64,000 bases of DNA from a bacterium (GTDB lineage: Bacteria > Armatimonadota > UBA5829): NCBI GenBank assembly GCA_021371935.1, contig JAJFVF010000019.1, forward strand, positions 213,268-277,267, in the 5' to 3' direction. Under the pieces are notes generated by a model that saw nothing but the letters and a program-made list of their open reading frames with translations, searched no databases and was not told the DNA's origin. Positions 5,618 through 42,610 of the stretch are shown in pieces (the stretch's first letter is position 1; every line of letters begins with the position of its first letter). The position numbers and the translations under genes are program-made.

Positions 5618-7882
5618 ATGAAAGCGAAATATATAGTCATAGAATTAGCTGCTGTTGGAATATTGCTTTGCCTGGCAGTAGTTCCTGTGCAGAGTTGGAC
5701 TTATGATTCCGGCGGCGGTATACTACAAGTGGATAAATGTACTGCAGGTTGTCATGATTGTATGAGCTGCGATTGTCCTCCAATCACAACAACGCAATCA
5801 GGTCCAGGCCCAGTATACGGTGTTGTTTACTCAGGCACAAGCGGCTGTTACGCCTACTTACATCTTGCCAGAACATGTTGGAGTAAATGGATATGGAACG
5901 GTGGAGGAATCCCTGCAACTACTTGGATAAATGAATTTGCATCGTATGCCATCTACAGTCCATACGGGAACAGCTTCACTTACAATTTTTGCTCGTGCAT
6001 TGGTGTGCCCGCTCCTGGAACTACCAGACGTGATAGGTATTATAAGGTTGACTCCTCTTCCGGAGTTATTGAGATATCGGGTTGGGTGGATGGCAAGGGA
6101 GAATGCTCAGGGTATAAATATGGTGTTCATGTAGGCACTACATGGGCATTTTCTATTTTAAGTAATTACACAGGCCCTATCGCAGACCGCAAAACAATAG
6201 CTTCTCCTGGACGCCGTGGTGCTCCGACATATCCGGCAAGGCCGAGCTTTTCGCCCGTTCATGGAGGCTGCCAGGAAGGTGATGATCCTGTAGATCTTGC
6301 TACAGGAGAGCATGTCTATATTCCGTGTGCGGATATAAGTGTCTACAATCCGTATGGACCTGGAATAGTCTACCAGAGAAACTTCCTGAGCAAGGTGGCC
6401 AAGGAGGGATATGCTTCTGCCGGTCAGTCTGTTGGCTGGGTGGATACATATGATGTAAGTATGACTTCAAGTGATGCGCAGACCTGGAGCGATCTAACAC
6501 TGAGATACCCGAACAGCGCCGAGGAGGATATGACTCCTGTGCTTGACAATGACGAGCCGACCGGCGAATTTACTGAACCCACTGGTTCCGAGTTCATTGT
6601 TACCGGCGTGCCGTCAGGTACGACAGGTCAGTGGCAGTCAATATCAATAACTTTCAAGGATCAGACTGTTTGGACATTCACACCAAAGGCAGCAGACAGC
6701 TATGTGCTCACCCGGATATCGAATAGAATGGGCCGCTATATTACAATAAACAGGGACTCGAACAATAACTATCAGGTAACCAGTATTGTCGATGACAGTA
6801 CACCGGCCAATTCTTTGCTGAGCTTTGTTTATACGAATGGCTACCTGACATCCGTTACTGACGCATATAACAGAAAAGTAATTTACTCATATGGAAGCAG
6901 CGCGGGAACAACATGTCTGCTTTCGACTTCTCAGATCGGCAATGTATCCGACAGCGCTATACCCGCTCGATGGACTTATGGATATACCGCATATGTGGAC
7001 CCGGCAAATCCGATGGGGCCAGCACAGCCTCACGTAACTTCCGTCAGTTTTCCCAGCCCTACAGGTTCGGGTATGAGTACAGAGACTTTTAATTACAACT
7101 CTGATGCACAGGTGGAGTCGATTGTCGATGACAATGGCAACCAAACGGAATTTTCTTACAAATATACTGATGGCACCATTGTTAGCATAAAGAATTTGCA
7201 AGATGTCGTTGAGTCTCAGTGGATTGCCAACTTCGATCCTGCCAATGGCAATATTGACACAGGTATTACTGACGCGACAGGATACGATATAGCGTATCTG
7301 TATGAGGATTCTACTAACCCAACAAAGATTACAAAAATTGTTGATCAGAAAAGACAGGAAACATCACTTGCCTACGACCAATACGGCAATATCACGAGCA
7401 CCACGACTCCAAGAGATACTACGACTACCTACACTTACGATTACAACAATTTCGCCCTCGGCAGACTGACGAGTATTCAGGAAGGAACCAAACCGGCAAC
7501 GACATTTACATACTATGAACCGAGCGGATTGGTGAATACAGTTGTTGGTCCCAAGCCAGGCACAACCGGCGGCAGTGAGACTGTGAGCACTTCGTTTACT
7601 TATGACAGCCTGGGAAACGTACTTACGAAAGTGGCACCTGGAAACAATGCCACTCAGACGATCACTACAACATACAACTACACAACAGACGGCATCTACA
7701 CTCAATCTGCCAAGATCGGGCAGCCGGTAACCATTACAGATCAGTTGGGACATATTACCCACATTCGATATGATTCGCGAGGAAACGTGACCGAAAGCAC
7801 TGACGCCATAGGTAACACAACCAGCTTTATGTATAATATTGCCGATCAACTGTCTGATATCATTCATCCGGTGATACCTTGA
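5618..7882 (+). CDS. secreted Rhs/YD-repeat protein, truncated (lacks core)
   Basis: Start ATG 5618 follows an AAGGAG and gives a signal peptide (KAKYIVIELAAVGILLCLAVVPVQSW); the longer frame from 5579 would spoil it. A Cys-rich stretch (CTAGCHDCMSCDC) follows, then a DUF6531-type segment (GDDPVDLATGEHVYIPCADI). YD repeats run to the end (for example YDQYGNITSTTTPRDTTTTYTYDYNN). The frame stops at IIHPVIP, well before any RHS core. The core sequence appears in another frame at 7896-8441, so an internal deletion or rearrangement removed the middle of a once longer gene. Probably a non-functional or passive surface protein. Confidence 0.7.
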   Translation: MKAKYIVIELAAVGILLCLAVVPVQSWTYDSGGGILQVDKCTAGCHDCMSCDCPPITTTQSGPGPVYGVVYSGTSGCYAYLHLARTCWSKWIWNGGGIPATTWINEFASYAIYSPYGNSFTYNFCSCIGVPAPGTTRRDRYYKVDSSSGVIEISGWVDGKGECSGYKYGVHVGTTWAFSILSNYTGPIADRKTIASPGRRGAPTYPARPSFSPVHGGCQEGDDPVDLATGEHVYIPCADISVYNPYGPGIVYQRNFLSKVAKEGYASAGQSVGWVDTYDVSMTSSDAQTWSDLTLRYPNSAEEDMTPVLDNDEPTGEFTEPTGSEFIVTGVPSGTTGQWQSISITFKDQTVWTFTPKAADSYVLTRISNRMGRYITINRDSNNNYQVTSIVDDSTPANSLLSFVYTNGYLTSVTDAYNRKVIYSYGSSAGTTCLLSTSQIGNVSDSAIPARWTYGYTAYVDPANPMGPAQPHVTSVSFPSPTGSGMSTETFNYNSDAQVESIVDDNGNQTEFSYKYTDGTIVSIKNLQDVVESQWIANFDPANGNIDTGITDATGYDIAYLYEDSTNPTKITKIVDQKRQETSLAYDQYGNITSTTTPRDTTTTYTYDYNNFALGRLTSIQEGTKPATTFTYYEPSGLVNTVVGPKPGTTGGSETVSTSFTYDSLGNVLTKVAPGNNATQTITTTYNYTTDGIYTQSAKIGQPVTITDQLGHITHIRYDSRGNVTESTDAIGNTTSFMYNIADQLSDIIHPVIP

Positions 7883-8540: not shown

Positions 8541-11500
8541 CTAGTAGCAACTGATGATATGCTCGCCAGCCGACGATATAGTAAATGTTAGGTGTCCGCT
8601 GGTCCATGTAAACGAAAGAGAATTACCGTCCATTGTAGCCGTAGTCGGCTGGTTGGGACAATATATTGTCACGCTACAGCTTCCACCCGCATAGATCTTT
8701 GTTGTGTTTGGGTCATTTGCTGATGGTGTATGCTCCATCCTGGCTTGAAGCGATACGGATGCGGACGCACTCAATAACGAAGTGCCATTATCGACCACGG
8801 ACGTCGTCTCCCTTGCAAAATATGAAGGAGAATCACCACCCAGGTAACGTCTCCCGGCCATTGTCCCTGTAACACTCCAGCCTCGCGAGCTGGTACAACT
8901 ACCATTTACAGGCCACAAAACCGATAGGACTGATTGACTGGAAGAATTACGTATTACAACACCTTCCGCCTGACTATCCCCGCCATCATTTGTGTCATTC
9001 CACCTTTTCAGCGTCCAGCCAGTCGTCTGGTCATCAAAACGAAGACCGATCAAAGAACTGGCACTGTTTGCCGTCCTGCTGCGAGTCAGCATCCCACCAT
9101 ACTGGTATGGAGTTTTATCATTTACATTCGAATCACCATTCGGTTTGCTCGTTGGAACATAGTAGGATGCATCAATTGCACCGGACCAATTCGTATCATA
9201 TGACAGCTCGTCTACATACAACTCATGTGCCGCTGTAGCCGTAGTATAGGTCTGAGTATCAACATCTTTGCGCGGGTCGGTACTCCAACCTCCACTCTCA
9301 GTAGCCCAAGGATTTGTCGTTCGGTATACATCTTGGTTATATGTGTAAGTCGTATGGTAACCGTCATATGGATTTGAAGTATTATCCCACATGGTGCCGT
9401 ATTGATCAGGCACGCTCACCAATGAGTGAAGCAGGAGTTGGAACTCAGGACTATACTCTGATTCGGCACTCATTACATCGCGTATCATGAAAAAGTCACC
9501 CAACCCTACGCACTCTCTCGTCCATGCGCCTAGATGACTGGCAGTCGAATCATAACTTGGAGCCGGATTGCAGACAACGTCAAAATAAGCACCCGGATTT
9601 CCACTTTCTCCATTAGCCAAAACATGCGTAATGCTTCCCCAATACGCCGGGCCAGGCTGAGGCTCATTTTCAACACCAAACCACTCGTATCCTTCGCCAT
9701 ATTGTCCGACAGGTGCTTCACCACCATAATCGAGAAGCAACACGTTTTCGTCATCTGTCATTTTCTTATACGTGAAACCGTAATCGACAATATACGGCAC
9801 ACCATCTCGATGCAAAATGAAAGTGCCGGCATCAGGATGAGCATGGCTTATAAACGTCCGGCCACACTTGAGTGAGAAGTATGTTGCAGTATTATCCCAC
9901 GAAGAACGCCATGTAAAAATACCGCCACTATAGTCGACGCCACTGTGCAAATTGCTGTCGTGGCTGTAATTCCAGTTGGGCAATGTGCTCAAATCTACTG
10001 CAGAAACAGTAGCGTCATACCACAAATAGCGTAAAGGTGTTGTGTAAGTTGTCGGCTGAACCAAAGTAGTGGCGAGCCACTGTGCAATCGGATCATCTAG
10101 AACGCGGGCCAAAAGTGACATACTTCCTTTGGGGAGTATCCATGCATAGGGAGTGCTGTCACCAAACATTGCAAACCCCGAGCAATTATCACTTCCTCCC
10201 GGCAATACAGAGTACAACAACCAACGGCTCGTATTGCTAAACCATGGATCATCTGCAAAACCATTGCCTTCTCCTGCAATACGACGCATTTCTACCCAAC
10301 GATTCAGGTATTCCAGACCGTAGCAGCCATACCCAACTCCTTCAGGGTGGCTGCCATCTTCGCTGATTACCGAGATGATTCTGTCCCATGCCGCTTCGCA
10401 TTTGTCATCCCACTCAGTTCTGGTGGTCTCATCCATCTCATCTTCAAGCGCGTACGCCACACTAGCAAGACCCGAATGAACAATCCATATGTGATTGCAC
10501 AAACTGAATTCTGCACCATATTGATCGAACTGTCGCCAAAAGTCATTAAGGGCACGTTCAGAATATTGCAACAGGCAGCGCCTTACTTCTTGGCGTTCTG
10601 TCGAGGTCAGATCATCATAAAACCAATCATAAGTTATTGCAAGAGACTGCAGGAAAATCATTCCACATAGGTCACTGTTGTTGTTCGCCCACAGTTCGCC
10701 ATCATCATACCAGTTTTTATAGCGGAGCATTGTCCAGAAATACTCCCACATTTTTGTCTTGTATGTAGTTAGATCTGGATTAACCTTAACTGCTAAAGCC
10801 AACGCAAGTAATCTATCACCGTAACTGCGTATATCTGCGCCGCTTGCAGGTATCTCCACAGGATCGTTGCCGCAATAATTCACAATCTGATTGCAGCTGG
10901 ATATAAGATTGTTCCACATTGCTTCATGGGTCGTGGTTCGCCGAGCTTGTATGTTGGACAGATCAGATGAAGAGAAAAGAACATGTGGATGTGCATGTCC
11001 CTCCAGGACCTCTATCTCTTTTGATGCCACCAGCGTCTGACCATCATATACTTCCAAGGTCCAGGTTCCCCAGTCTTCGACTGATTGAACATCATAGGAT
11101 GCCTCATACCGCCCGTCATCTGTCGCGACAAGATTGATCGAAAGATCAGACAGGCTAGGGCGATTCCATATAGCTGTGATATTCATACTGGTTGGTGCAC
11201 ATATATCAATAGGAATACAATCGCCAGGTACAAATACAGTATCTGCTTTAGGCTGTATAATCGTAACACTCGTGGCTGAATCACCCACAGTCCAGCCTGG
11301 GTTCATTGATTCAAACAGTTCGACAATATCGTCTCGATCACCGAAAACCCACAAGTATCTATATGTGTTATCATCCTCAACATTGAAAGGAGCCGAGTTG
11401 AAAATCTCTATACCACTGTTGTCTCGTGTGCGCAGGTCTCCGGGCTTGAACATATACCATCCTGCAGCCTTACTTGTATCGCTGGAATTGTAGTCGACTA

Positions 11501-14225
11501 TCCAGTTCACGTTTGTATTGTATCTAAGTGCGATAGGGTCACTGCTATACTCATCTGATACCATGTAATCGAAGCCACATTCGCCGGTATTGAAGTATAG
11601 TATTTTAGGACCCCAGTTTGTGCTGGTTAGTTCGACATCGTCTGAAACAGTCATTACGAATTCACACCATGGCTGTCCTTTGATGAGCCTATAAGTCTCT
11701 TCCGCAGAATGCGACGGGAAACCAGTTGGACTGCTTGGTGTTACATTCGTAAAGGAAAATGATAGAGAGACCTGATTATCAGAGCTGTCAGATTGCCATG
11801 TTGGAACCACTAGGTCCTCAGCATTAACACTATTAGCAACCAATTCTCCACTTGTTGCCGTGTAGCTGTTGTAGAAGCCTTCCACAGGCGACCAGTAGTC
11901 TGACAATCGCTCAATTAGTGAGTATCCGGGTCTTCGACCATGCTTCAGCTCTCCAATAAAACCACTATACATCTCCCAACGAGAACGCTCGAGCCCTAGA
12001 ACATCCGACTCAAGCCTGAAATAGTCATCGCCGGTTGGTAATTCACGATCACGCTCGTCATATAATCCCCAATTGGGATTGCCCCAAGTATATGCTGTAG
12101 CGGTATTAGTCGCATTGTAGTACACAAGAAAACGCCTCTGAGAACCTGATGCAGTCGTACCGCTTGCTATAAAATGTACCTCGGCTACCTTGCCCGATGG
12201 CTGCGCCCAAATATCAGCACAACTTACTGACACTGCCGTACCTAAAGTTATTTCGTCTACTGCAACCGAAGTTGTATTCACATACATGCCATCAGGCGCA
12301 GATATGCGTACAAAAAGAGGCACATTATCACGCGAAAAGTCGCATGAATTAAGCGTCACTTCTCGACGGTAATCAAAACCACTATTGCTGGGGTTCCATG
12401 GAGTTATCGAATCCCGAACCAGTGCCGCATCATCAATATATGCCGACTCACCGGAAGCCGTATTCACCACTTTGATGAAAACAGTTGCAGCATTTGTCAG
12501 AGCATTAGTGGTAACGGAAATTTGTGTCCAATCGGTGCTTGAAGAGGCAGCACTCCATACAGTGCTGGTCGATGCAGGATCGGTGCAACCGTACGGGTTA
12601 ATGCCAACGTAAGTGCTGACATCACCACTGCTACTTTTTACCCAGACAGATGCAGTATAGTTTTGTCCTGTCGTGAGATTGTTGATCGCTTGATAAACCC
12701 CAGCACAACAGATCGACCCGACACATTGGCTATAATTTGCCGAAACATAGTTCGTGTTGTCACTACTAAACGTCGGCGTGCCGGATACCGTGAAAGTATT
12801 CCAGTGATCCGCCAATCCATTACTGAAGTTTTCCTCGAAATTGCCGTTTTGCAAGCCGGCGGCAGCAATTATGCCATCACTGGTCCCTACACTGCTTACC
12901 AGCCCCTGACCATTGGTCGCCTTCACCGATACGTAATACGTCGGACCAACCACAAGCGATAGTCCGGTGTGAGTGACTTGCGTAGCAGTTGCCGGGCTTG
13001 GAGCAGTCCAGCCAGCAATGTCTGTTCCGCCTACAGTTGTTCCGATTGCATACTGATACTCGGTTATACCAGACTCGGAATCTGTGGATACCCAACTGGC
13101 ATGTATTTGGCTCAAGCACGCAGTCATCTGACCGTCATCTGTCACGACAGGTGTGCTGGGTGCCGTGGTATCGGCATACTCATCGGCTCCTATGTCGACC
13201 TTGTCTCCGCCGGATACCATATCCACCAGCCTCAGTTCGCCGTCAATATCGACCCAACCTGTTTCGACTTCATCGTCTTCACCCGCATCAATGCAGGAAG
13301 AGTTTGAGGTGATGTGATAATCATCATTTTCCTCATCAACGAAGAGCGGATTTGAGGAGATGTTTCCGTCGTTCCCGGTTGGGTCTGTGATTCCGTAGTA
13401 GTTGGCAGTTGTGTTGCCATATACGCAGTTGTGACTGATTGTTGGAGTAGTGTCTGGATCATTATAGTACAAGCCGTATTCGTTGAGTGCAATAATGTTG
13501 TTGCATATGGTTGCTGGAAATGATGTCTCGGCAATATCGTAACATTCAATTCCATTGCCACATCCGACTATTGTGTTGTTTGTAATTACCGAACCCTGAT
13601 CCCACTCAAGAAAGACGCCACGCCACTCTGCCCCAACAATCAAATTGTCAAAAGCCCTTATGCTAGACCATTCACAGTATAGTGTGTCGTAGCCTCCTAT
13701 GAAAGTGTTGTTTGAAACGATGGCCGAGGAAAAACAGAAGTAGATATGTACACACCAGTATTGTGACTGCCATGGATTTGAGAATGTGTTATTGGCTATT
13801 GTTGGTGAACTCTCATAAGCCCAAAGTTCGAAGTTCTGAATCTTGAATCCGTCCAGAATCGGGTCGGGCGACGTATAATAATCGCAGTATATGCCACTCC
13901 CGTCTATGATCGTCTCGTTAGTCTCCCAATCTCTATCTGAAAAGGAGGTGTCATTTTCATCGAATCCACCGTACAAGCCTATCCCAGATTTCAAGTCTAT
14001 GTCTTCTTCATTGTCGTATGTTCCGGCGGCCACCCATATCTGGTCGCCACTGGAAGCGGCTGTGACCGCTGCCTGGATGGTCGCTTTTGCGAGAGCCCAG
14101 GTGGAACCGTCGTAGTTGTCATTGCCGTCTGTCTTTACACGGATTACTGCCGCCTGTGCGGGCAGCGCCCAAATCATCAGAAAACAAATTGCCAGTACTA
14201 CCAGATTACGAGACTTGCCTTGCAT
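8541..14225 (-). CDS. giant secreted multidomain polysaccharide lyase (heparinase II/III-like)
   Basis: 1894 residues from ATG 14225, which has AAGGAGG just upstream; the longer frame to 14330 lacks such a site. A signal peptide (LVVLAICFLMIWALPAQA) is followed by a parallel beta-helix of about 330 residues ending GADEYAD, and a fibronectin-like domain. A carbohydrate-binding jelly-roll segment (NGNFEENFSNGLADHW...YIDDAAL) and a DUF2341-type domain (FDYRREVTLN...) come next. An alpha/alpha toroid (SGLASVAYALEDE) and a C-terminal beta-sandwich with GRTFISHAHPDAGTFILHRDG, as in heparinase II/III-type lyases, complete it. It probably cleaves uronic-acid-containing polysaccharide outside the cell. 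The substrate cannot be told. No sugar-uptake genes adjoin it. Confidence 0.8.
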   Translation of the reverse strand: MQGKSRNLVVLAICFLMIWALPAQAAVIRVKTDGNDNYDGSTWALAKATIQAAVTAASSGDQIWVAAGTYDNEEDIDLKSGIGLYGGFDENDTSFSDRDWETNETIIDGSGIYCDYYTSPDPILDGFKIQNFELWAYESSPTIANNTFSNPWQSQYWCVHIYFCFSSAIVSNNTFIGGYDTLYCEWSSIRAFDNLIVGAEWRGVFLEWDQGSVITNNTIVGCGNGIECYDIAETSFPATICNNIIALNEYGLYYNDPDTTPTISHNCVYGNTTANYYGITDPTGNDGNISSNPLFVDEENDDYHITSNSSCIDAGEDDEVETGWVDIDGELRLVDMVSGGDKVDIGADEYADTTAPSTPVVTDDGQMTACLSQIHASWVSTDSESGITEYQYAIGTTVGGTDIAGWTAPSPATATQVTHTGLSLVVGPTYYVSVKATNGQGLVSSVGTSDGIIAAAGLQNGNFEENFSNGLADHWNTFTVSGTPTFSSDNTNYVSANYSQCVGSICCAGVYQAINNLTTGQNYTASVWVKSSSGDVSTYVGINPYGCTDPASTSTVWSAASSSTDWTQISVTTNALTNAATVFIKVVNTASGESAYIDDAALVRDSITPWNPSNSGFDYRREVTLNSCDFSRDNVPLFVRISAPDGMYVNTTSVAVDEITLGTAVSVSCADIWAQPSGKVAEVHFIASGTTASGSQRRFLVYYNATNTATAYTWGNPNWGLYDERDRELPTGDDYFRLESDVLGLERSRWEMYSGFIGELKHGRRPGYSLIERLSDYWSPVEGFYNSYTATSGELVANSVNAEDLVVPTWQSDSSDNQVSLSFSFTNVTPSSPTGFPSHSAEETYRLIKGQPWCEFVMTVSDDVELTSTNWGPKILYFNTGECGFDYMVSDEYSSDPIALRYNTNVNWIVDYNSSDTSKAAGWYMFKPGDLRTRDNSGIEIFNSAPFNVEDDNTYRYLWVFGDRDDIVELFESMNPGWTVGDSATSVTIIQPKADTVFVPGDCIPIDICAPTSMNITAIWNRPSLSDLSINLVATDDGRYEASYDVQSVEDWGTWTLEVYDGQTLVASKEIEVLEGHAHPHVLFSSSDLSNIQARRTTTHEAMWNNLISSCNQIVNYCGNDPVEIPASGADIRSYGDRLLALALAVKVNPDLTTYKTKMWEYFWTMLRYKNWYDDGELWANNNSDLCGMIFLQSLAITYDWFYDDLTSTERQEVRRCLLQYSERALNDFWRQFDQYGAEFSLCNHIWIVHSGLASVAYALEDEMDETTRTEWDDKCEAAWDRIISVISEDGSHPEGVGYGCYGLEYLNRWVEMRRIAGEGNGFADDPWFSNTSRWLLYSVLPGGSDNCSGFAMFGDSTPYAWILPKGSMSLLARVLDDPIAQWLATTLVQPTTYTTPLRYLWYDATVSAVDLSTLPNWNYSHDSNLHSGVDYSGGIFTWRSSWDNTATYFSLKCGRTFISHAHPDAGTFILHRDGVPYIVDYGFTYKKMTDDENVLLLDYGGEAPVGQYGEGYEWFGVENEPQPGPAYWGSITHVLANGESGNPGAYFDVVCNPAPSYDSTASHLGAWTRECVGLGDFFMIRDVMSAESEYSPEFQLLLHSLVSVPDQYGTMWDNTSNPYDGYHTTYTYNQDVYRTTNPWATESGGWSTDPRKDVDTQTYTTATAAHELYVDELSYDTNWSGAIDASYYVPTSKPNGDSNVNDKTPYQYGGMLTRSRTANSASSLIGLRFDDQTTGWTLKRWNDTNDGGDSQAEGVVIRNSSSQSVLSVLWPVNGSCTSSRGWSVTGTMAGRRYLGGDSPSYFARETTSVVDNGTSLLSASASVSLQARMEHTPSANDPNTTKIYAGGSCSVTIYCPNQPTTATMDGNSLSFTWTSGHLTFTISSAGEHIISCY

Positions 14226-14469
14226 GAATTGCCTCCTTAGTAGCTGATCATGACTGTGATGCTCACACGGGCGCGGTATTCCCGACTGCATTACCACCTC
14301 CATTTGTGCGCAGCAAGCATCATTATACATAGTCTTATTGAAAACTAGCTCATGAATAAGATATTGTCAACGATATAATGATGAATTGTTTAACTGCTGG
14401 GGGACATAATGTGCGCAAGACGTGAATGATATTTTGACAATTGCAGAGAATAACCACGTGAGGCTATCG

Positions 14470-34999: not shown

Positions 35000-36046
35000 G
35001 TGAGCTTCTTACCCAGATGCATGGCCACGGCGATAGGCAGCATGCCGCATGCCGACGCCAAAGCTGCTATAGATATCGTTCTTGATAGTATCCCAGATGC
35101 GCCTATATGGCCTCAGCTTCCCGCAAACGGCATGAACGAGCAGATGGAGGTCCAATACTCCGAGGGTCTGCCGGATGTGGTGATCGATAATGAAAAACAG
35201 CGGATTTATTTCGATACAACTGACGATACATTCGCTGCTCTGGGCGCGTTTATGGAGAAAATCGCAATGGATGAAGTTGACGCCTTCGCCATAAGCCCAG
35301 ACTACTCCAGGGGAATATACGCTATGGAGGTGGCGCTTAAAAACTGCGGTTCGACGCGGCCGTTTGTTAAGGTGCAGACTACCGGGCCGCTGAGTTTTGG
35401 CCTTACTGTTGTTGACCAAGACAAGCGCGCAATATATTACAACGACATCTACAAGGACGCTATTATAAAGGCTCTGACGATGAAGTGTCGATGGCAGATT
35501 CGCAAATTCAAGCCGTATGCCGAAAAAGTGATATGCTTTATCGATGAGCCGATACTCTCGGCGTTCGGATCGTCGACATATGTCAGCGTGAGCCGGGATG
35601 ATGTGATCTCAGCTTTGAACGAGATGATAGAGGCTGTTCACTCCGAAGGTGCGCTTGCGGGCATTCACTGCTGCGGCAACACTGAATGGTCGATACTCAT
35701 CGATGCAGGGGTCGATATCATCAGCTTCGACGCATTCGATTTTGGCGATACTATTGCTCTCTACCCGGATGCCGTCAAAAAATATCTGGAAGACGGCAAG
35801 TATTTGGCATGGGGGATCGTGCCTACAAACAGTGAGAAAGTGCGGTCTCAGTCGGTCGAGAGCCTTGTCGCGAAGTTCGACTCGGTGGTAGATAACCTTG
35901 CCTCAAAAAGTGGGTTGAGCCGCGAATATATCATCGAGCGGGCATTTATTACTCCCTCATGCGGGACTGGTTCGCTGCCGGTTGACGATGCGGAGATGGT
36001 ATTCAGACTTCTAAGCGAAACAAGCAAAGCACTGCAAGGCAGGTAG
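35000..36046 (+). CDS. folate-independent core methionine synthase (MesB-like)
   Basis: 348 residues from GTG 35000, preceded by AGGAG. It matches only the C-terminal catalytic half of MetE (ATAIGSMPH at the start, IDEP at 182-184). Zinc ligands H223, C225 or C224, and C321 are in GIHCCGNTEW and ITPSCGTGSL. The folate-binding N-terminal half of MetE is missing. Core synthases of this kind in Wood-Ljungdahl anaerobes (MesB) are predicted to take methyl from the corrinoid iron-sulfur protein. Its place directly before cooC and the CODH/ACS genes supports that donor. Assignment to MesB rather than another core family is inferred. Confidence 0.8.
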   Translation: MSFLPRCMATAIGSMPHADAKAAIDIVLDSIPDAPIWPQLPANGMNEQMEVQYSEGLPDVVIDNEKQRIYFDTTDDTFAALGAFMEKIAMDEVDAFAISPDYSRGIYAMEVALKNCGSTRPFVKVQTTGPLSFGLTVVDQDKRAIYYNDIYKDAIIKALTMKCRWQIRKFKPYAEKVICFIDEPILSAFGSSTYVSVSRDDVISALNEMIEAVHSEGALAGIHCCGNTEWSILIDAGVDIISFDAFDFGDTIALYPDAVKKYLEDGKYLAWGIVPTNSEKVRSQSVESLVAKFDSVVDNLASKSGLSREYIIERAFITPSCGTGSLPVDDAEMVFRLLSETSKALQGR

Positions 36047-36048
36047 TT

Positions 36049-36801
36049 ATGGGTTATACGATAGCGGTTACAGGCAAAGGTGGCGTGGGCAAGACCACAA
36101 TCTCCACACTGATTCTCCAATGGCTGGTGGCGCACAAAGAGACGCCCGTGTTGGCGGTGGATGCCGACTCAAACGCCAACCTCAACGAGGCTTTGGGAAT
36201 CACGTACGAGGCGTCTGTCGGCGGGATACGCGAAGAGGCAAGATCAACTGCAACCAAGTTGGCCGGGATCGCCAAGCAGGAGTTTCTGGATATGCAGGTG
36301 CAGTCGGCTCTGGTCGAGCAGGAAGGTTACGACCTGATCGTGATGGGTAGACCTGAAGGTCCGGGCTGCTACTGCTTCGCCAACAACGTGCTGCGCGATG
36401 TGATCCAACGACTTTCGTCGAACTACAAGCATATTTTGGTGGACAGCGAGGCGGGCTGCGAGCATATCTCGCGTCGGACTCTGCTCAAGATAGACTTTTT
36501 GCTTATTGTGTCCGACTGCAGTGTGCGCGGTATACGCACTGCAAAGCGCATTGCCGACCTGACGCAGGAGATGGGCACGCCGGTCGCAAATCGTGGATTG
36601 ATTGTCAATCGAGTGCCTGACGGTGTATTACCGGAAAGAGTAAAGGCCGAAGTAGATGCTGCGGGTCTGCTGCTGCTTGAGGTCATAAAAATGGATGATA
36701 ACGTGGCCGCGCTGGATGCGGACGGATTGGCGGTCGGCGATATACCGGCTGATTCGGCGTGCAGGATGAGTGTAGACAAAATGATGAGCCATTTGATTTA
36801 G
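36049..36801 (+). CDS. cooC: CO dehydrogenase maturation ATPase CooC
   Basis: 250 residues of the MinD/ParA-type P-loop group. The deviant Walker A is GKGGVGKTT (about 10-18) and VLAVDADSNANL follows, as in CooC/AcsF. The mid-region MGRPEGPGCYCFANNVLRDVI carries the CxC motif that binds nickel at the dimer interface. CooC loads nickel into CODH or ACS. It starts two bases after the mesB stop. Its own stop codon is part of a heptanucleotide array. Confidence 0.93.
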   Translation: MGYTIAVTGKGGVGKTTISTLILQWLVAHKETPVLAVDADSNANLNEALGITYEASVGGIREEARSTATKLAGIAKQEFLDMQVQSALVEQEGYDLIVMGRPEGPGCYCFANNVLRDVIQRLSSNYKHILVDSEAGCEHISRRTLLKIDFLLIVSDCSVRGIRTAKRIADLTQEMGTPVANRGLIVNRVPDGVLPERVKAEVDAAGLLLLEVIKMDDNVAALDADGLAVGDIPADSACRMSVDKMMSHLI

Positions 36802-36820: not shown

Positions 36821-36868
36821 ATTATTGCTCTCTGTACCGACACCTAACAACCAATTTTGGAGACTCCG

Positions 36869-38068
36869 ATGGCTGTTGATATAACTGAATTTACGCGCAC
36901 ATGCACAATGGGCACTGCTTCCATTTCCGATTTCGCCAAAACGAAAATTGCAGCCCTCAAGCTCGCATCGCAGAAGCGCAGTGGGATAGTGGACGCAAAA
37001 AGTCTGCGCAAGGCTGCATCACTCTTCGACATCGATACCGATGGCAGGGGCGATTATGAGATAGCATCCGACCTGGCTGATTTTTTTATGAGTCAATTCT
37101 CTTGGTCGGACCAGCCGAGCGCTGCATTGAACCTGGCTCCGGTAAAACTCAGGCAGCACTGGAAGAATATCGGTGTCGAGCCGAGTGGAATCGATTCGGT
37201 AGTGATTGAAGCTCTGGCTGGTGCTGGTGACATGACTAAGACGTGTATGAAATGCGGCATAGCTGACGGCTGGATAGGCTCACTTGTCGCCACTATCACG
37301 TCGGACATACTTGATGGTTCGCCGGAGCCGTTTGTGGCTCATGCCGATCCTGATAAGCATGTCGAGTGTAAAAACTTCAATGATTCCATTAAAAGTGACA
37401 CTGGTGTCGAGCTGATCGCAGGGTTCTCGAATGAGTCGATTGCGCATATGCTCGGTGGGCGGTTCAGAGCAGGGTTCCAAGTCTTCTCGGATGCGATAAC
37501 TGACGGCAGAATCCGCGGGATCGTATGCCTGTTCGGCTGCAGTCAAAGTGATACCGGTTTGGCCGATATAGCGGGTGAGCTTATAAAGAAAAATGTCCTC
37601 GTGCTCAATATTGGGTGCTGTGCGGTCGAGTTGGCAAAGGCCGGACTGCTTCTGCCTGAAGCGGCTGAACGTGCCGGTGAGACACTTGCTGAGATGTGCG
37701 AGATGATAGGGATGCCGCTTGTTCTGCAGATGGGATCGTGTTATGAAGGCGCTCGTGTGCTCTTATTGGCAAATGAACTACTCGCGTTGGGTGGACTCGG
37801 CGAGGACTTCTCTGATATGCCGCTAGCCGCATATTGTGGTCAAATTGATGGAAGAGGTGCTGCAATTGCGAGCTGCTTTGCAGCAAGTGGTCTATTCACG
37901 GTGATAGGCAAATCCGGGTTTTCCACTTTCCACTTTCCGCTTTCCACTGTTGACGATCCTGTCGACGCGATAATCACGCACATCGAGTCCAAGCGTGATG
38001 ATCTGAAGATCAATGCTCAGCGCGAACGCAAATTACTGGATATGAAGGAGCGCAGGGAACTGGTATGA
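36869..38068 (+). CDS. short CooS-like protein lacking one Rossmann domain and the B/D clusters
   Basis: 399 residues against about 630 for CooS. ATG 36869 has GGAG six bases upstream. The helical region (GIADGWIGSLVATITSDILDGSPEP) and the last Rossmann domain are well matched. C224 (VCLFGC), C250 (LNIGC) and C291 (QMGSC) correspond to the last three C-cluster ligands of CooS. The middle domain with the His and two other Cys ligands is missing, as is the N-terminal iron-sulfur Cys motif. A canonical Ni-Fe-S C-cluster is therefore unlikely. A heptanucleotide array (37920-37947) codes FSTFHFPLST in the C-terminal part. It may be a scaffold, or use another metal site. Confidence 0.8.
   Translation: MAVDITEFTRTCTMGTASISDFAKTKIAALKLASQKRSGIVDAKSLRKAASLFDIDTDGRGDYEIASDLADFFMSQFSWSDQPSAALNLAPVKLRQHWKNIGVEPSGIDSVVIEALAGAGDMTKTCMKCGIADGWIGSLVATITSDILDGSPEPFVAHADPDKHVECKNFNDSIKSDTGVELIAGFSNESIAHMLGGRFRAGFQVFSDAITDGRIRGIVCLFGCSQSDTGLADIAGELIKKNVLVLNIGCCAVELAKAGLLLPEAAERAGETLAEMCEMIGMPLVLQMGSCYEGARVLLLANELLALGGLGEDFSDMPLAAYCGQIDGRGAAIASCFAASGLFTVIGKSGFSTFHFPLSTVDDPVDAIITHIESKRDDLKINAQRERKLLDMKERRELV
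37920..37947. repeat. heptanucleotide array inside a coding region
   Basis: TTTCCAC TTTCCAC TTTCCGC TTTCCAC, read in frame within the CooS-like gene. Confidence 0.85.
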
Positions 38069-41000
38069 GCAAAATTATATCCTCCATAGCCATATCCGGC
38101 GCACAAAAAGTGGTTGGGGCAGTCGATTCGGCTGTGCGGCAGGTGATTGCCGACAAGGGCAGCGACTGCCCGGTGGGCTTTCCAGATACTGCCTATTATC
38201 TGCCGGTGATATACTCGCTGCTGGGTCATAAGGTCGAGACACTCGGGGACATGCTGCCGGTGCTGGATGAGTGCAAGGCTCTGCTGGCTCCTCCGCCGTC
38301 TGAGAACGCATGGCTGCCGTATTTCGGCAGTACTCTGGACGCGGGTATGGCGACACTTTTTGCTGCCGAGATGCTTGAAGCGTGCAAATATCTGATCGGT
38401 CCGAACCCTGTGGATGGAATATGGCTGGGCGCTGCAAGCGATGTGATTATACGCGAGCGAGGGATCGAGTTTGTGGACGGTTCCGCTCCGGGATTTGCCG
38501 CTATTGTGGGTGCGGCTCCTGATGTCGAAACTGCGGTCAGGATCGCACGTGAGCTTCAAGAGAAGAACATCTACGTCTTCATGGCCGGTGAGACTGACGG
38601 CATATCCTTTGCTGAGCAGCTCGTCGAAGGCGGAGTGGAAGTCGGATGGGACACTCGTCTTGTTCCATTCGGCAAGGATGTCTCGGCTGCGATATACGCG
38701 CTGGGCTTTGCGAACCGCGCGGCACTGTCATTCGGCGGTGTCCAGCCAGGCGATTATGCTCGCAATCTCAAATATAACAAAGACCGCATCTTCGCATTCG
38801 TGATGGCTCTGGGCGCTGTGGATGAGATCAAATGCGCTGCCGCAGCCGGTGCGCTCAGTTACGGCTTCCCGATTATTGCCGACACTGCCATTCCGCAGAT
38901 ATTGCCCAGCGGCGTATGTACATATGAGCACATCATCTCGGATGTGCCGCTGGATCAGATAGTCGAAAAAGCTCTTGAAGTGCGCGGGTGCAAAATCAAG
39001 ATCACAAAAGTCCCGATTCCGGTTACCTATGGCGCGGCATTCGAGGGCGAGAGGATCAGGAAAGAACAGACCCACGTCGAGTTCGGCGGCAACCGCACGC
39101 CCGCATTCGAGTATGTGACCACAAAAGATCTCGATGAGGTCCAGGACGGCAGGATTGAAGTTGTCGGGCCGGATGTGAATGATGTCGAGCCGGGCACCGC
39201 TCTGCCGCTGGGTATATGGGTGGAAGTGGCAGGCCGTAAGATGCAGTCCGACTTCGAGTCGATCCTTGAGCGCCAGATTCATCACCTGATCAACGGCGCC
39301 GAGGGTATCTGGCACATGGGTCAGCGCGACATCATATGGGTAAGGATCAGCAAAAACGCCCAGGCCAAGGGCTTTACTATCGCTCACCTGGGAGAAATTC
39401 TGCATGCCAAGCTCCTGAATGAATATCCGGCGATTGTGGATAAGGTGCAGGTGACGCTCTTCACCAAGAAGGACGAGGTCGAAAAACGCCTGACTGAGGC
39501 GCGAAGGGTCTATCGTGAGCGCAATTTGCGTGTGGAGTCGCTTACTGACGAGACTGTGGACACGTTCTATTCATGCCTGCTGTGCCAGAGTTTTGCGCCC
39601 AATCATGTCTGTGTCATAACTCCTGAGAGGCTGGGGCTGTGTGGTGCATATAACTGGCTGGACGGCAAGGCAGCCTATGAGATCGACCCGACAGGTCCGA
39701 ACCAGCCGCTGGTGAAGGGCGAATGTCTGGACCCGGTTCGCGGGCAGTGGAAGAATATCAACGACTACGTATATCAAAACTCCAAGCAGACTATCAAAGC
39801 GTTCAACGCATACTCGATGCTCAAAGACCCGATGACGAGCTGCGGTTGCTTCGAGGCGATAGTCGCGATGCTGCCGGAGTGCAACGGAGTCGCGATAGTG
39901 AGCCGCGAGTATCCGGGCAATACGCCAATGGGCATGAAGTTCTCCACTCTTGCGGGTATGATCGGCGGAGGCATTCAAACACCGGGCTTTATAGGTGTAG
40001 GCAAAGCCTACATCTCAAGCCGGAAGTTTATTGCATCCGAGGGTGGGCACAAACGCATCGTCTGGATGCCTAAAGAACTCAAAGATTCCCTGCGCGAAGA
40101 GCTGCTTCATATCGGCGAACAGGTTGGCATACCCGGCTTTATTGATATGATCGCTGATGAAACAATCGCGATGGACGATGCCTCGATCCGTGCTCATATG
40201 GAGAAGGTGAGCCATCCTGCGCTGGATATGTGGGATATTACCCAGTCATCACCGGAGGCCGAGGCATGGGATGCAAAGAAAGCTGCCGCTCCGGTGGCAG
40301 AGCCGGTGCATATCGAGACTGTCAAACCGGCTGAACCCGTGAAAACTGCCAAACCTGTAGTCAAGCCTGTAGAGGCAGTGGCTGCTGCGCCTGTGGTTTC
40401 ACCGGACAGGCAATATACGTCGGCTGAGATTGTCATGCCCGGCAGGTTCAGTGTGCCCGGCGAGACGGCCAACATGCAGGTTCGCACAGTTACACTCGGC
40501 GGCGGCGGGACACGGACATCGGCTGTGACCATTGGAGGAGCGTCCACGCTGCCGTTCAGGCATTTCGAGGGCGACACGGGCTGCAGGCAGATAGTCGCGA
40601 TGGAGGTCTTCGATCAGGTCTCGCCAAAGCTGCCTGAGAGCATACTCGAAGCATACGGCAATCTGCTTGAAAATCCTGCCGGTATGGCTAAATACTGCGT
40701 TGAGGAGCTTGGTGCGGAGGCGATCAGCGTCAGACTCGACGGGACCCATCCCGATAATGGCGACAAATCACCAGAAGAAGCGGCAAAAGTAGTCGAGAGC
40801 GTGCTCAAGGCTGTAGGAGTGCCGATTATAGTGACTGGTCCGGGCAATTATGATAAAATGAACGAGGTAATCAAGCAGATAGCCAGTGAGTTTACCGGCG
40901 AAAACCTGCTCCTGAACTGGGCGGAGACGGATAATTACAAGACACTCGCCGCCGCCGCGATGGGATATGGGCACTCTGTGGTCGCTCAGACGCCGATAGA

Positions 41001-41403
41001 TGTCAATATGGCCAAGCAGCTCAATATTCTGATGACCAATATGGGGATCGCACCGGAGAAGATAGTGATCGATGCTCTTACCGGCGCTATAGGCTATGGC
41101 CTTGAATATACATATTCTGTGATGGAGCGAATACGCACCGCGGCGTTTACTGGTGACGCTATGCTAGCTATGCCGATGCTGGGCACTCCGGGCTGCGAGG
41201 TCGCAAAGACAAAGGAGAGCAAGGCTCCTCAAGATGCATTTCCACTTTGGGGATCGGCTGAGAAGCGCGGAGCTTTACTTGAGATAGCGACGGCCATGAG
41301 CCTGCTGAATGCGGGTGCGGATTTGCTGATTATGTATCATCCTCTTGCCGCTAAGACAGTCAAGCAGAAGATTGCAGAGATGGGGGAAATAGGTAACAGG
41401 TAA
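38065..41403 (+). CDS. acetyl-CoA synthase fused to corrinoid protein small subunit (AcsB-AcsD)
   Basis: 1112 residues. Residues 1 to about 732 are acetyl-CoA synthase of normal length. The A-cluster cysteines are C504, C507, C516, C526 (FYSCLLC, HVC, GLC) and C593, C595 (TSCGC). Residues about 733-785 form an Ala/Pro/Val/Lys-rich linker. Residues about 786-1112 are the small TIM-barrel subunit of the corrinoid iron-sulfur protein (FEGDTGCRQIVAMEVFD, LNWAETDNYKTLAAAAMGYGHSVVAQ). ACS joins methyl, CO and CoA; AcsD supports the B12 subunit AcsC. A physical link of these two is unusual. The start overlaps the cooS-like stop (ATGA). AcsC and AcsE are not in the window. Confidence 0.93.
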   Translation: MSKIISSIAISGAQKVVGAVDSAVRQVIADKGSDCPVGFPDTAYYLPVIYSLLGHKVETLGDMLPVLDECKALLAPPPSENAWLPYFGSTLDAGMATLFAAEMLEACKYLIGPNPVDGIWLGAASDVIIRERGIEFVDGSAPGFAAIVGAAPDVETAVRIARELQEKNIYVFMAGETDGISFAEQLVEGGVEVGWDTRLVPFGKDVSAAIYALGFANRAALSFGGVQPGDYARNLKYNKDRIFAFVMALGAVDEIKCAAAAGALSYGFPIIADTAIPQILPSGVCTYEHIISDVPLDQIVEKALEVRGCKIKITKVPIPVTYGAAFEGERIRKEQTHVEFGGNRTPAFEYVTTKDLDEVQDGRIEVVGPDVNDVEPGTALPLGIWVEVAGRKMQSDFESILERQIHHLINGAEGIWHMGQRDIIWVRISKNAQAKGFTIAHLGEILHAKLLNEYPAIVDKVQVTLFTKKDEVEKRLTEARRVYRERNLRVESLTDETVDTFYSCLLCQSFAPNHVCVITPERLGLCGAYNWLDGKAAYEIDPTGPNQPLVKGECLDPVRGQWKNINDYVYQNSKQTIKAFNAYSMLKDPMTSCGCFEAIVAMLPECNGVAIVSREYPGNTPMGMKFSTLAGMIGGGIQTPGFIGVGKAYISSRKFIASEGGHKRIVWMPKELKDSLREELLHIGEQVGIPGFIDMIADETIAMDDASIRAHMEKVSHPALDMWDITQSSPEAEAWDAKKAAAPVAEPVHIETVKPAEPVKTAKPVVKPVEAVAAAPVVSPDRQYTSAEIVMPGRFSVPGETANMQVRTVTLGGGGTRTSAVTIGGASTLPFRHFEGDTGCRQIVAMEVFDQVSPKLPESILEAYGNLLENPAGMAKYCVEELGAEAISVRLDGTHPDNGDKSPEEAAKVVESVLKAVGVPIIVTGPGNYDKMNEVIKQIASEFTGENLLLNWAETDNYKTLAAAAMGYGHSVVAQTPIDVNMAKQLNILMTNMGIAPEKIVIDALTGAIGYGLEYTYSVMERIRTAAFTGDAMLAMPMLGTPGCEVAKTKESKAPQDAFPLWGSAEKRGALLEIATAMSLLNAGADLLIMYHPLAAKTVKQKIAEMGEIGNR

Positions 41404-41409: not shown

Positions 41410-41419
41410 TGTGAGACAG

Positions 41420-42610
41420 ATGGAACCGATAGAGATAAAGAAAAACATTTACTGGGTGGGAGCGCTGGACTGGGATGTGCGCGATTTCCACGGCTATTCC
41501 ACTCCCCAGGGAACGACATATAATGCATATCTGGTCATAGACGACAAGGTTACGCTCTTCGATACTGTGAAAAAAGGCCATGGCTGCGCGCTTATCTCCA
41601 ACATAAAGCGCATTATCGACCCCGCAAAAATTGACTATATAGTAGTAAACCATGTCGAGCCGGATCACAGCGGGTCTATGCCCGAGGTGATGGAAATAGT
41701 CAGGCCGGAGAAAGTGTTCTGTTCGTCAAACGGCAAAAAGTCGCTGCTTGCGCATTATCATCGTGATGACTGGCCGTATGAAGTGGTCACCGACGGCCAG
41801 ACTCTGAGCCTGGGTTCAAAGACAGTGCGTTTTCTCGAGACCCGAATGCTCCACTGGCCGGACAGCATGTTTTCATATATCGAGCAGGACAAGTTGCTGA
41901 TATCGCAGGATGCGTTCGGCGAACACTGGGCGACCACTGAGCGATTCGATGATGAGGTTGACCAGTCTAAACTGATGCACGAGGCTGCCAAGTATTACGC
42001 CAATATCCTGCTGCCTTATTCGCCGCTCGTGCAAAAGCTGTTGGCACGTGTGAGTGAGATGAACCTTGAGATAGAGATGATCGCACCGGACCATGGTGTG
42101 ATCTGGCGGAGCAATCCCGGTTCCATCATCGAAGCATGGGGCAAATGGAGCAGGCAGGAGACAACAGCCAAGGCCCTGGTCGTCTATGATACCATGTGGC
42201 ACAGCACAGAGCATATGGCCAACGCCATTGCCGAGGGTCTTGACGCCGAGGGCATAAGCGTCAAAGTCATGAATATGCAGTTCAACCACCGCAGCGATGT
42301 CGCGACCGAGATGCTGGACGCCAAAGCGATCATATTCGGCTCAGCGACCATCAACAACGGCATGCTCCCGCGAATGGCCGATGTCGTAAGCTATGTGAAG
42401 GGTCTGCGCCCGGCGAACAAGATAGGCGCTGCGTTCGGGTCATACGGATGGGGCGGCGAGGCGGTCAAGCTGCTCAATGCTGCTATGGAAGAGATGAAGT
42501 TCGATATCATCGATCCGGGCGTGCGTGTGAACTATGTTCCCACCGAATCCGACTTAGCAGGTTGTGTTGAGTTGGGGCGAAAAGTCGCCAAGGCGATAAA
42601 AGGTGAGTAA
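41420..42610 (+). CDS. fprA: flavodiiron protein FprA (A-type)
   Basis: 396 residues from ATG 41420. The metallo-beta-lactamase-like domain has NHVEPDHSG (di-iron ligands), MLHWPDSMFSY, DAFGEH and APDHGVIWR. The flavodoxin domain (VVYDTMWHSTEHMANAIAEGL) follows from about residue 250. These enzymes reduce oxygen or NO to harmless products, protecting anaerobes. Placed directly after the oxygen-sensitive ACS gene, it probably protects that system. In acetogens FprA-type genes often sit near Wood-Ljungdahl genes. Confidence 0.93.
   Translation: MEPIEIKKNIYWVGALDWDVRDFHGYSTPQGTTYNAYLVIDDKVTLFDTVKKGHGCALISNIKRIIDPAKIDYIVVNHVEPDHSGSMPEVMEIVRPEKVFCSSNGKKSLLAHYHRDDWPYEVVTDGQTLSLGSKTVRFLETRMLHWPDSMFSYIEQDKLLISQDAFGEHWATTERFDDEVDQSKLMHEAAKYYANILLPYSPLVQKLLARVSEMNLEIEMIAPDHGVIWRSNPGSIIEAWGKWSRQETTAKALVVYDTMWHSTEHMANAIAEGLDAEGISVKVMNMQFNHRSDVATEMLDAKAIIFGSATINNGMLPRMADVVSYVKGLRPANKIGAAFGSYGWGGEAVKLLNAAMEEMKFDIIDPGVRVNYVPTESDLAGCVELGRKVAKAIKGE

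Follow-up and report, generated by a model that had tools for sequence, protein, structure and literature searches.

Acetyl-CoA synthase (ACS, AcsB) and AcsD, the small subunit of the corrinoid iron-sulfur protein (CFeSP), are normally separate proteins. In the stretch of DNA analysed here (the window; 64,000 nucleotides of contig JAJFVF010000019.1, from a bacterium of the Armatimonadota), a single open frame encodes both, directly behind a truncated CO dehydrogenase (CODH). The locus therefore raises two questions: whether the two proteins are naturally fused, and what a tethered ACS would do next to a CODH that is predicted to be inactive.

One chain carries ACS and AcsD

The frame runs on the forward strand from the ATG at 38065 to the stop codon at 41403 and encodes 1112 residues without an internal stop. 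It is composed of the following parts.

38065–40239, forward strand: ACS (AcsB) part, complete and of the bacterial type with the N-terminal domain, residues 1–725 (NF040764; Pfam CODH_A_N, CdhC and ACS_CODH_B_C; phmmer against solved ACS up to 742.5 bits)
39574–39849, forward strand: A-cluster region, with Cys504, 507, 516 and 526 and with Cys593-Gly-Cys595
40240–40461, forward strand: linker, about 75 residues (roughly 726–799), rich in Ala, Val, Pro, Glu and Lys
40462–41403, forward strand: AcsD part (small subunit of CFeSP), residues 800–1112 and the stop codon (NF003376, PF03599; phmmer against the solved CFeSP small subunit 4djd_D 269.6 bits)

The ACS half scores 1054.7 bits against NCBIfam NF040764 (ACS alpha/beta; cut-off 800) over residues 10–725. 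All six A-cluster cysteines are present, the stretch that holds them aligns with solved bacterial ACS in phmmer, and they are conserved in 7 of 7 aligned fusions. The AcsD half scores 364.3 bits against NF003376 (AcsD delta; cut-off 280) over residues 800–1106 and 141.9 bits against PF03599 (cut-off 24.8). It stays below the cut-offs of five other delta models, including TIGR00381 (231.9 versus 252.9) and NF040759 (269.5 versus 430). TIGR00316 and TIGR00381, models of the archaeal acetyl-CoA decarbonylase/synthase (ACDS) type, also match the fusion. A full AcsB with all A-cluster cysteines and a full AcsD-type domain in one frame, as claimed in the original prediction made from the sequence, are thus both present. 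The linker had been described as Pro/Ala-rich and about 50 residues long. Pro and Ala make up 34% of residues 727–800, where Val, Glu and Lys are abundant as well, and the length is about 75 residues.

The linker had further been proposed to hold the methyl-corrinoid donor close to the A-cluster. Attachment to ACS stands; the fused part, however, is the small subunit AcsD, and the corrinoid sits on the separate AcsC. Therefore, the tether would hold the corrinoid donor only through the AcsC–AcsD dimer. AcsC is encoded on another contig (family match C3:20163-21284), in a 446-residue frame with a CGECGVPTC motif. The frame after it resembles a corrinoid-protein activator (RACo/AcsV), as named by eye.

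The fusion is found in four phyla

A second species of the same genus (G004) has an equivalent uninterrupted frame of 1126 residues with 93% identity to the window fusion. When the AcsD half is used to scan the named genome contigs, 71 loci (L-numbers) are obtained. The C-terminus of ACS and AcsD share one frame in 11 of them (L031, L032, L034–L039, L041, L042, and L066), AcsD lies in a frame of its own of 249–405 residues in 58, and the contig stops before ACS in two (L030 and L033). Six of the 11 fusions are full length on one contig, namely those of an acidobacterium (L032), two Fibrobacterota (L038 and L039), and three Phycisphaerales (L041, L042, and L066). Together with the window and G004, the full-length single-frame fusions number eight, and the fusion is spread over Armatimonadota, Acidobacteriota, Fibrobacterota, and Planctomycetota. 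The search for further AcsB–AcsD fusions that had been proposed as a check thus yields them.

Among 291 Armatimonadota genomes, 47 match the fusion. The fusion clade accounts for six of these (the window genome G000, G002, G003, G004, G028, and G231), four of which are cut by contig ends; G002, G028, and G231 contain the loci L031, L030, and L033, respectively. In the remaining matches, ACS is mostly 44–61% identical, and any AcsD that is found matches separately.

Relatives were checked for stops and frameshifts in the linker that would point to misassembly, and none is found. Of the 16 fusion-clade loci, 13 read through the linker without interruption (the window, G004, L031/G002, L032, L034–L039, L041, L042, and L066), and in the other three (L030/G028, L033/G231, and G003) the contig ends before the ACS part. 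That seven fusion-clade loci end at a contig edge (L030, L031, L033, L034, L035, L037, and G003) is what could be said for an assembly artefact, but eight independent full-length frames in four phyla leave it next to no probability, and we reject it.

Two other ACS genes are interrupted in different ways. The acidobacterial fusion L036 has a frame break at 6510–6649, within the ACS part and outside the linker. An unfused Armatimonadota ACS (L133, 392–4231, reverse strand; G244:C602) is interrupted at the second A-cluster cysteine by an intein that includes a LAGLIDADG domain (Intein_splicing PF14890, LAGLIDADG_3 PF14528).

Origin of the fusion and its linker

In the ACS tree, the 11 fused rows form one clade, with a value of 100 in the Shimodaira–Hasegawa-like approximate likelihood ratio test (SH-aLRT), apart from most unfused Armatimonadota ACS. 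This tree took 59 of 76 rows: all 11 fusions, 28 rows from genome-scan loci, and every second of 37 others, plus L040, L043, and L061 where these were not yet included. Before this selection, duplicates and rows shorter than 340 residues had been removed, as had L098 and the intein copy L133. The joining of two normally separate proteins is thus natural, as predicted, with a single origin on the ACS tree and retention in several lineages.

The AcsD tree (81 rows, after removal of duplicates and of rows shorter than 250 residues) needs three changes for the fusion rows; the unfused L040 nests inside the fusions, and L011 duplicates L031 without the label. L040 is thus placed in conflicting positions, outside the fusion clade on the ACS tree and inside it on the AcsD tree. 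Constraining the AcsD tree to one fusion clade is not rejected (p = 0.179, approximately unbiased test). The simplest reading is one fusion event followed by spread between phyla; a later split in the L040 line, or a second fusion, might also have occurred. The genome of L032 additionally carries a separate ACS and AcsD (G291:C127). There, and in L134 (G252:C13), an unfused ACS is followed by a stop codon and then by AcsD in the same frame, a layout in which loss of the stop could yield a fusion.

In five relatives (L031/G002, L032, L034, L035, and L036), the linker contains a module that ends in sequence similar to the C-terminus of AcsD, for example STALNLLTAGANMLLMYS versus ATAMSLLNAGADLLIMYH. 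Compared with AcsD, the module beats 300 of 300 shuffles in the four tested of the five (z 7.4 to 11.2). Two Fibrobacterota linkers tested in the same way gave no AcsD-like module. It is also missing from the pair with the truncated CODH, the window and G004. The module may be a remnant of a partial acsD duplication or may act in docking.

A truncated CODH precedes the fusion

36857–38068, forward strand: truncated CODH, 403 residues from the listed TTG (TIGR01702 179.7 bits, below the cut-off of 478)

This short CODH more probably begins at the in-frame ATG at 36869, and the last 4 bases of its gene are shared with the beginning of the fusion. In both the window and G004, alignment with the full CODHs of other loci shows that the N-terminal block of B- and D-cluster cysteines is absent. 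Also gone is a middle stretch, estimated from the 6t7j_B match at about 140 residues, that includes the His of HGHEP, the Cys of GICC, and the Cys of DVQC, and the HRTHMG motif and the Lys of SEK are missing as well. Three of the six C-cluster ligands are lost, and the three C-terminal C-cluster cysteines are kept. The roles assigned to these residues follow PMC6344411 and established knowledge of Ni-CODH.

Other fusion loci have full CODHs, with frames of 658 codons in G002 (the later part only being visible in the alignment), 647 in G028, and 721 in G231. A CODH match is present in 50 of the 291 Armatimonadota genomes, and the end-to-end short form occurs only in G000 and G004. Some further CODH frames shorter than 600 codons are partial matches, that of G244 lying at a contig end.

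The short CODHs of the window and G004 are identical at 313 of 402 positions (78%). The ratio of nonsynonymous to synonymous substitution rates (ω) between them is 0.110, compared with 0.026 for ACS, 0.066 for AcsD, 0.068 for the MesB-like protein, and 0.053 for the CooC-like protein encoded upstream; these values are rough, as synonymous sites are near saturation (synonymous divergence, dS, 0.8–1.4). The short CODH is kept under purifying selection. Its structure model has a predicted local distance difference test score (pLDDT) of 83.3, and the best solved match is 6t7j_B (Z 49.9, 377 residues aligned, root-mean-square deviation 2.3); the model is, however, built on an alignment with CODH relatives. 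The protein is thus predicted to retain the CODH fold. Judged from its missing residues, it should be catalytically inactive and unable to reduce CO2. The original prediction overlooked this neighbour. Because the adjacent CODH is truncated and predicted to be inactive, the usual framing of CO2 reduction coupled with methyl transfer does not fit this organism.

Gene cluster and genome complement

The remaining genes of the cluster are as follows.

35000–36046, forward strand: MesB-like folate-independent methionine synthase with putative zinc ligands His223, Cys225, Asp244, and Cys321 (ligand spacing; weak methionine synthase match)
36049–36801, forward strand: CooC/AcsF-like P-loop ATPase with a presumed role in nickel insertion (PF01656; its relatives lie upstream of CODH in fusion loci whose flanks are long enough)
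41411–42610, forward strand: flavodiiron protein (flavorubredoxin-like), also adjoining the fusion in G004
starting at 42603: exonuclease III, next after the flavodiiron protein

The order is MesB-like protein, CooC-like protein, short CODH, fusion, flavodiiron protein, exonuclease III, and it is identical in G004. Up to the flavodiiron protein, the genes are separated by 2 bases, by 55 or 67 bases (depending on the CODH start codon), by the 4-base overlap, and by 7 bases. A scan for promoters and terminators gave no site clear enough for use. The putative zinc ligands of the MesB-like protein are spaced by 2, 19, and 77 residues, which fits the published H, C, D/E, C pattern; in PMC7857596, the ligands of Dehalococcoides mccartyi MesB are at 214, 216, 235, and 311. 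A sequence search for solved relatives of the MesB-like protein gave none at E 0.01. In a search of seven genomes, its gene is present in all six fusion-clade Armatimonadota genomes (in pieces in G003) and absent from G001, which has no ACS.

The window genome is 3.54 Mb and 98% complete. Across it, no second ACS or AcsD is found beside the fusion, and no second CODH beside the short one. It contains three CdhD-family matches: AcsC, the fusion, and C2:34092 (34.2 bits). The third is rejected as an extra AcsD because it falls within a pterin-binding methyltransferase frame. This methyltransferase, a MetF, and a formate–tetrahydrofolate-ligase-like frame (the last named by eye) sit together on C2. 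In G001, a genome of the same genus that is also 98% complete, MetF and MetH-like parts are present, and searches for the fusion, CODH, and the MesB-like protein gave no match to any. The whole module may have been lost within the genus in the case of G001.

A possible role in methyl supply

An ACS without CODH chemistry is left with two options, to split acetyl-CoA or to take CO from another source. We favour cleavage and methyl supply because a MesB-like gene lies in the same cluster and no source of CO has been identified. In the scheme that we propose, the inherited fusion carries AcsD on a C-terminal linker of ACS, and AcsC would dock on the fused AcsD, so that the corrinoid protein remains attached to its partner in methyl exchange, ACS. 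In the window species and its sister, the CODH, minus its electron-transfer and CO2-reducing clusters, would be retained as a non-catalytic partner of ACS, probably as a scaffold at the N-terminal domain of ACS. Such a module would be without its own CO2-to-CO supply. Cleavage of acetyl-CoA would yield CoA and CO, with the methyl group bound to the A-cluster, and this group would pass to the tethered AcsC–AcsD and then to the MesB-like enzyme, yielding methionine, or to folate. The docking, the scaffold role, the direction of flux, and the methyl acceptor are steps that we infer.

The beta subunit of CFeSP is AcsD, and the alpha subunit is AcsC. In a modelled CODH–ACS–CFeSP complex, as presented in PMC12289521, the N-terminal domain of ACS contacts CFeSP beta, and its C-terminal domain lies against the corrinoid domain of alpha. 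This arrangement seems to allow a C-terminal tether to AcsD, which would hold the CFeSP dimer close and not the corrinoid alone.

Acetyl-CoA cleavage of this kind has a parallel in the incomplete Wood–Ljungdahl pathway of D. mccartyi, which is not known to include a CODH. As in the window, an ACS without a working CODH (judged from sequence) is combined there with a MesB-like gene. According to PMC7005905 and PMC7857596, D. mccartyi cleaves acetyl-CoA with AcsB, CO leaves the cell, and the methyl group is thought to go from AcsCD to core-MetE/MesB; such cleavage for methionine, and MesB with CFeSP, have been described in D. mccartyi and others.

Overall, a tethered ACS without CO2/CO chemistry, most likely cleaving acetyl-CoA to supply methyl groups, is a reading that we hold about equally apt to be right or wrong. 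Its narrower form, in which a CFeSP-tethered acetyl-CoA lyase sits on a dead CODH as scaffold or CO exit, releases CO, and is dedicated to the MesB-like methionine synthase, is more tentative and somewhat more apt to be wrong.

Several observations count against methyl supply by cleavage. The genome has three matches to the methylenetetrahydrofolate reductase family (MetF type), the pterin-binding methyltransferase frame, and candidate parts of a split MetH. MetF, the methyltransferase, and the MetH parts also occur in G001, so methionine need not depend on the module, whereas in D. mccartyi the corresponding route is proposed to be essential for it. The idea that the MesB-like protein is the sole methionine synthase is unsupported, as split-MetH-like parts are present. 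D. mccartyi is said to be without MetF and AcsE in PMC7857596; unlike it, the window genome has MetF and pterin methyltransferase genes, a fused ACS–AcsD, and a retained short CODH. Methyl groups could flow the opposite way, from methyl-folate to ACS. In addition, the structure model of the fusion is poor (mean pLDDT 52.6, with low confidence over most of ACS) and silent on docking, the short CODH is evolving more quickly than ACS, AcsD, and the MesB-like and CooC-like proteins, the ω values are rough, and the named fusion records are metagenome-assembled genomes.

A rival reading is CO assimilation, in which the fusion makes acetyl-CoA from methyl-folate and CO, either external or from another enzyme, so that CODH catalysis is dispensable and ACS synthesis is not. 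The methyl branch that appears to be present on C2 and the strong constraint on ACS and AcsD are consistent with it, but the genome has no other CODH, no CO source is identified, and the methyltransferase and MetF matches recur in G001, which is without ACS; we consider it not very likely. If the CODH were instead degenerating and the whole module on its way out, the higher ω of the short CODH, the absence of ACS and CODH from G001, and the location of AcsC away from the cluster would be explained. Two species with 78% CODH identity nevertheless share the truncation and an open frame, and the ω of ACS is 0.026, which makes decay improbable.

The short CODH might also keep some chemistry, for example by binding metal in another kind of site formed by the cysteines that are left. 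Conservation of Cys at the three C-terminal C-cluster positions in the window and G004, and of the CooC-like ATPase, points that way; the other ligands, the electron-transfer clusters, and the acid–base motifs are gone, however, and the CooC-like protein may serve the A-cluster nickel instead, for which AcsF is a precedent. We regard residual chemistry as very improbable. As to the fusion itself, it might merely fix stoichiometry or co-translation without a kinetic effect. The wide variation of linker length and make-up among fusions argues for this, whereas the persistence of the joined form across four phyla argues against it, though it is no proof of a kinetic benefit; on balance this is unlikely.

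Comparison with known systems

The closest described systems are the bacterial CODH/ACS (AcsA–AcsB) with a separate CFeSP (AcsC–AcsD) of Moorella, Carboxydothermus, and Clostridium autoethanogenum. The fusion loci resemble them in ACS domains, A-cluster ligands, and AcsD, and in having CODH, CooC-like, and AcsC genes near by in most loci with enough flank. They differ in that ACS and AcsD form one chain and, in the window and G004, in that the CODH is truncated and predicted to be inactive. The archaeal ACDS complex (CdhC, CdhD, and CdhE) has homologous ACS and delta subunits. There the two are separate subunits, whereas the window ACS has a bacterial N-terminal domain and is fused. The small Ni-CODH-like proteins called mini-CooS are likewise short CODH homologues, but they have a complete metal-cluster motif according to PMC8776680. 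The window protein is without most of that motif and is therefore rejected as a mini-CooS.

Titles and abstract starts of the open-licence PubMed Central literature gave no report of an ACS–AcsD fusion. On this basis, the new elements are the fusion and a neighbouring CODH that is conserved and predicted to be inactive. Transfer of methyl groups between CFeSP and ACS depends on extensive motion within a short-lived complex that is difficult to trap, and a natural one-chain version offers a construct for structural and kinetic work. Genus-mates with a full (G002) and a truncated CODH (G000 and G004) provide a natural test of whether, and for what, ACS works without its own CO2/CO catalysis. The truncation beside the fusion suggests that the pathway may serve as a source of methyl groups rather than for CO2 fixation.

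Elsewhere in the window, a 1929-residue frame at 8541–14330 on the reverse strand contains DUF4962, NosD, DUF1565, and a carbohydrate-binding domain.
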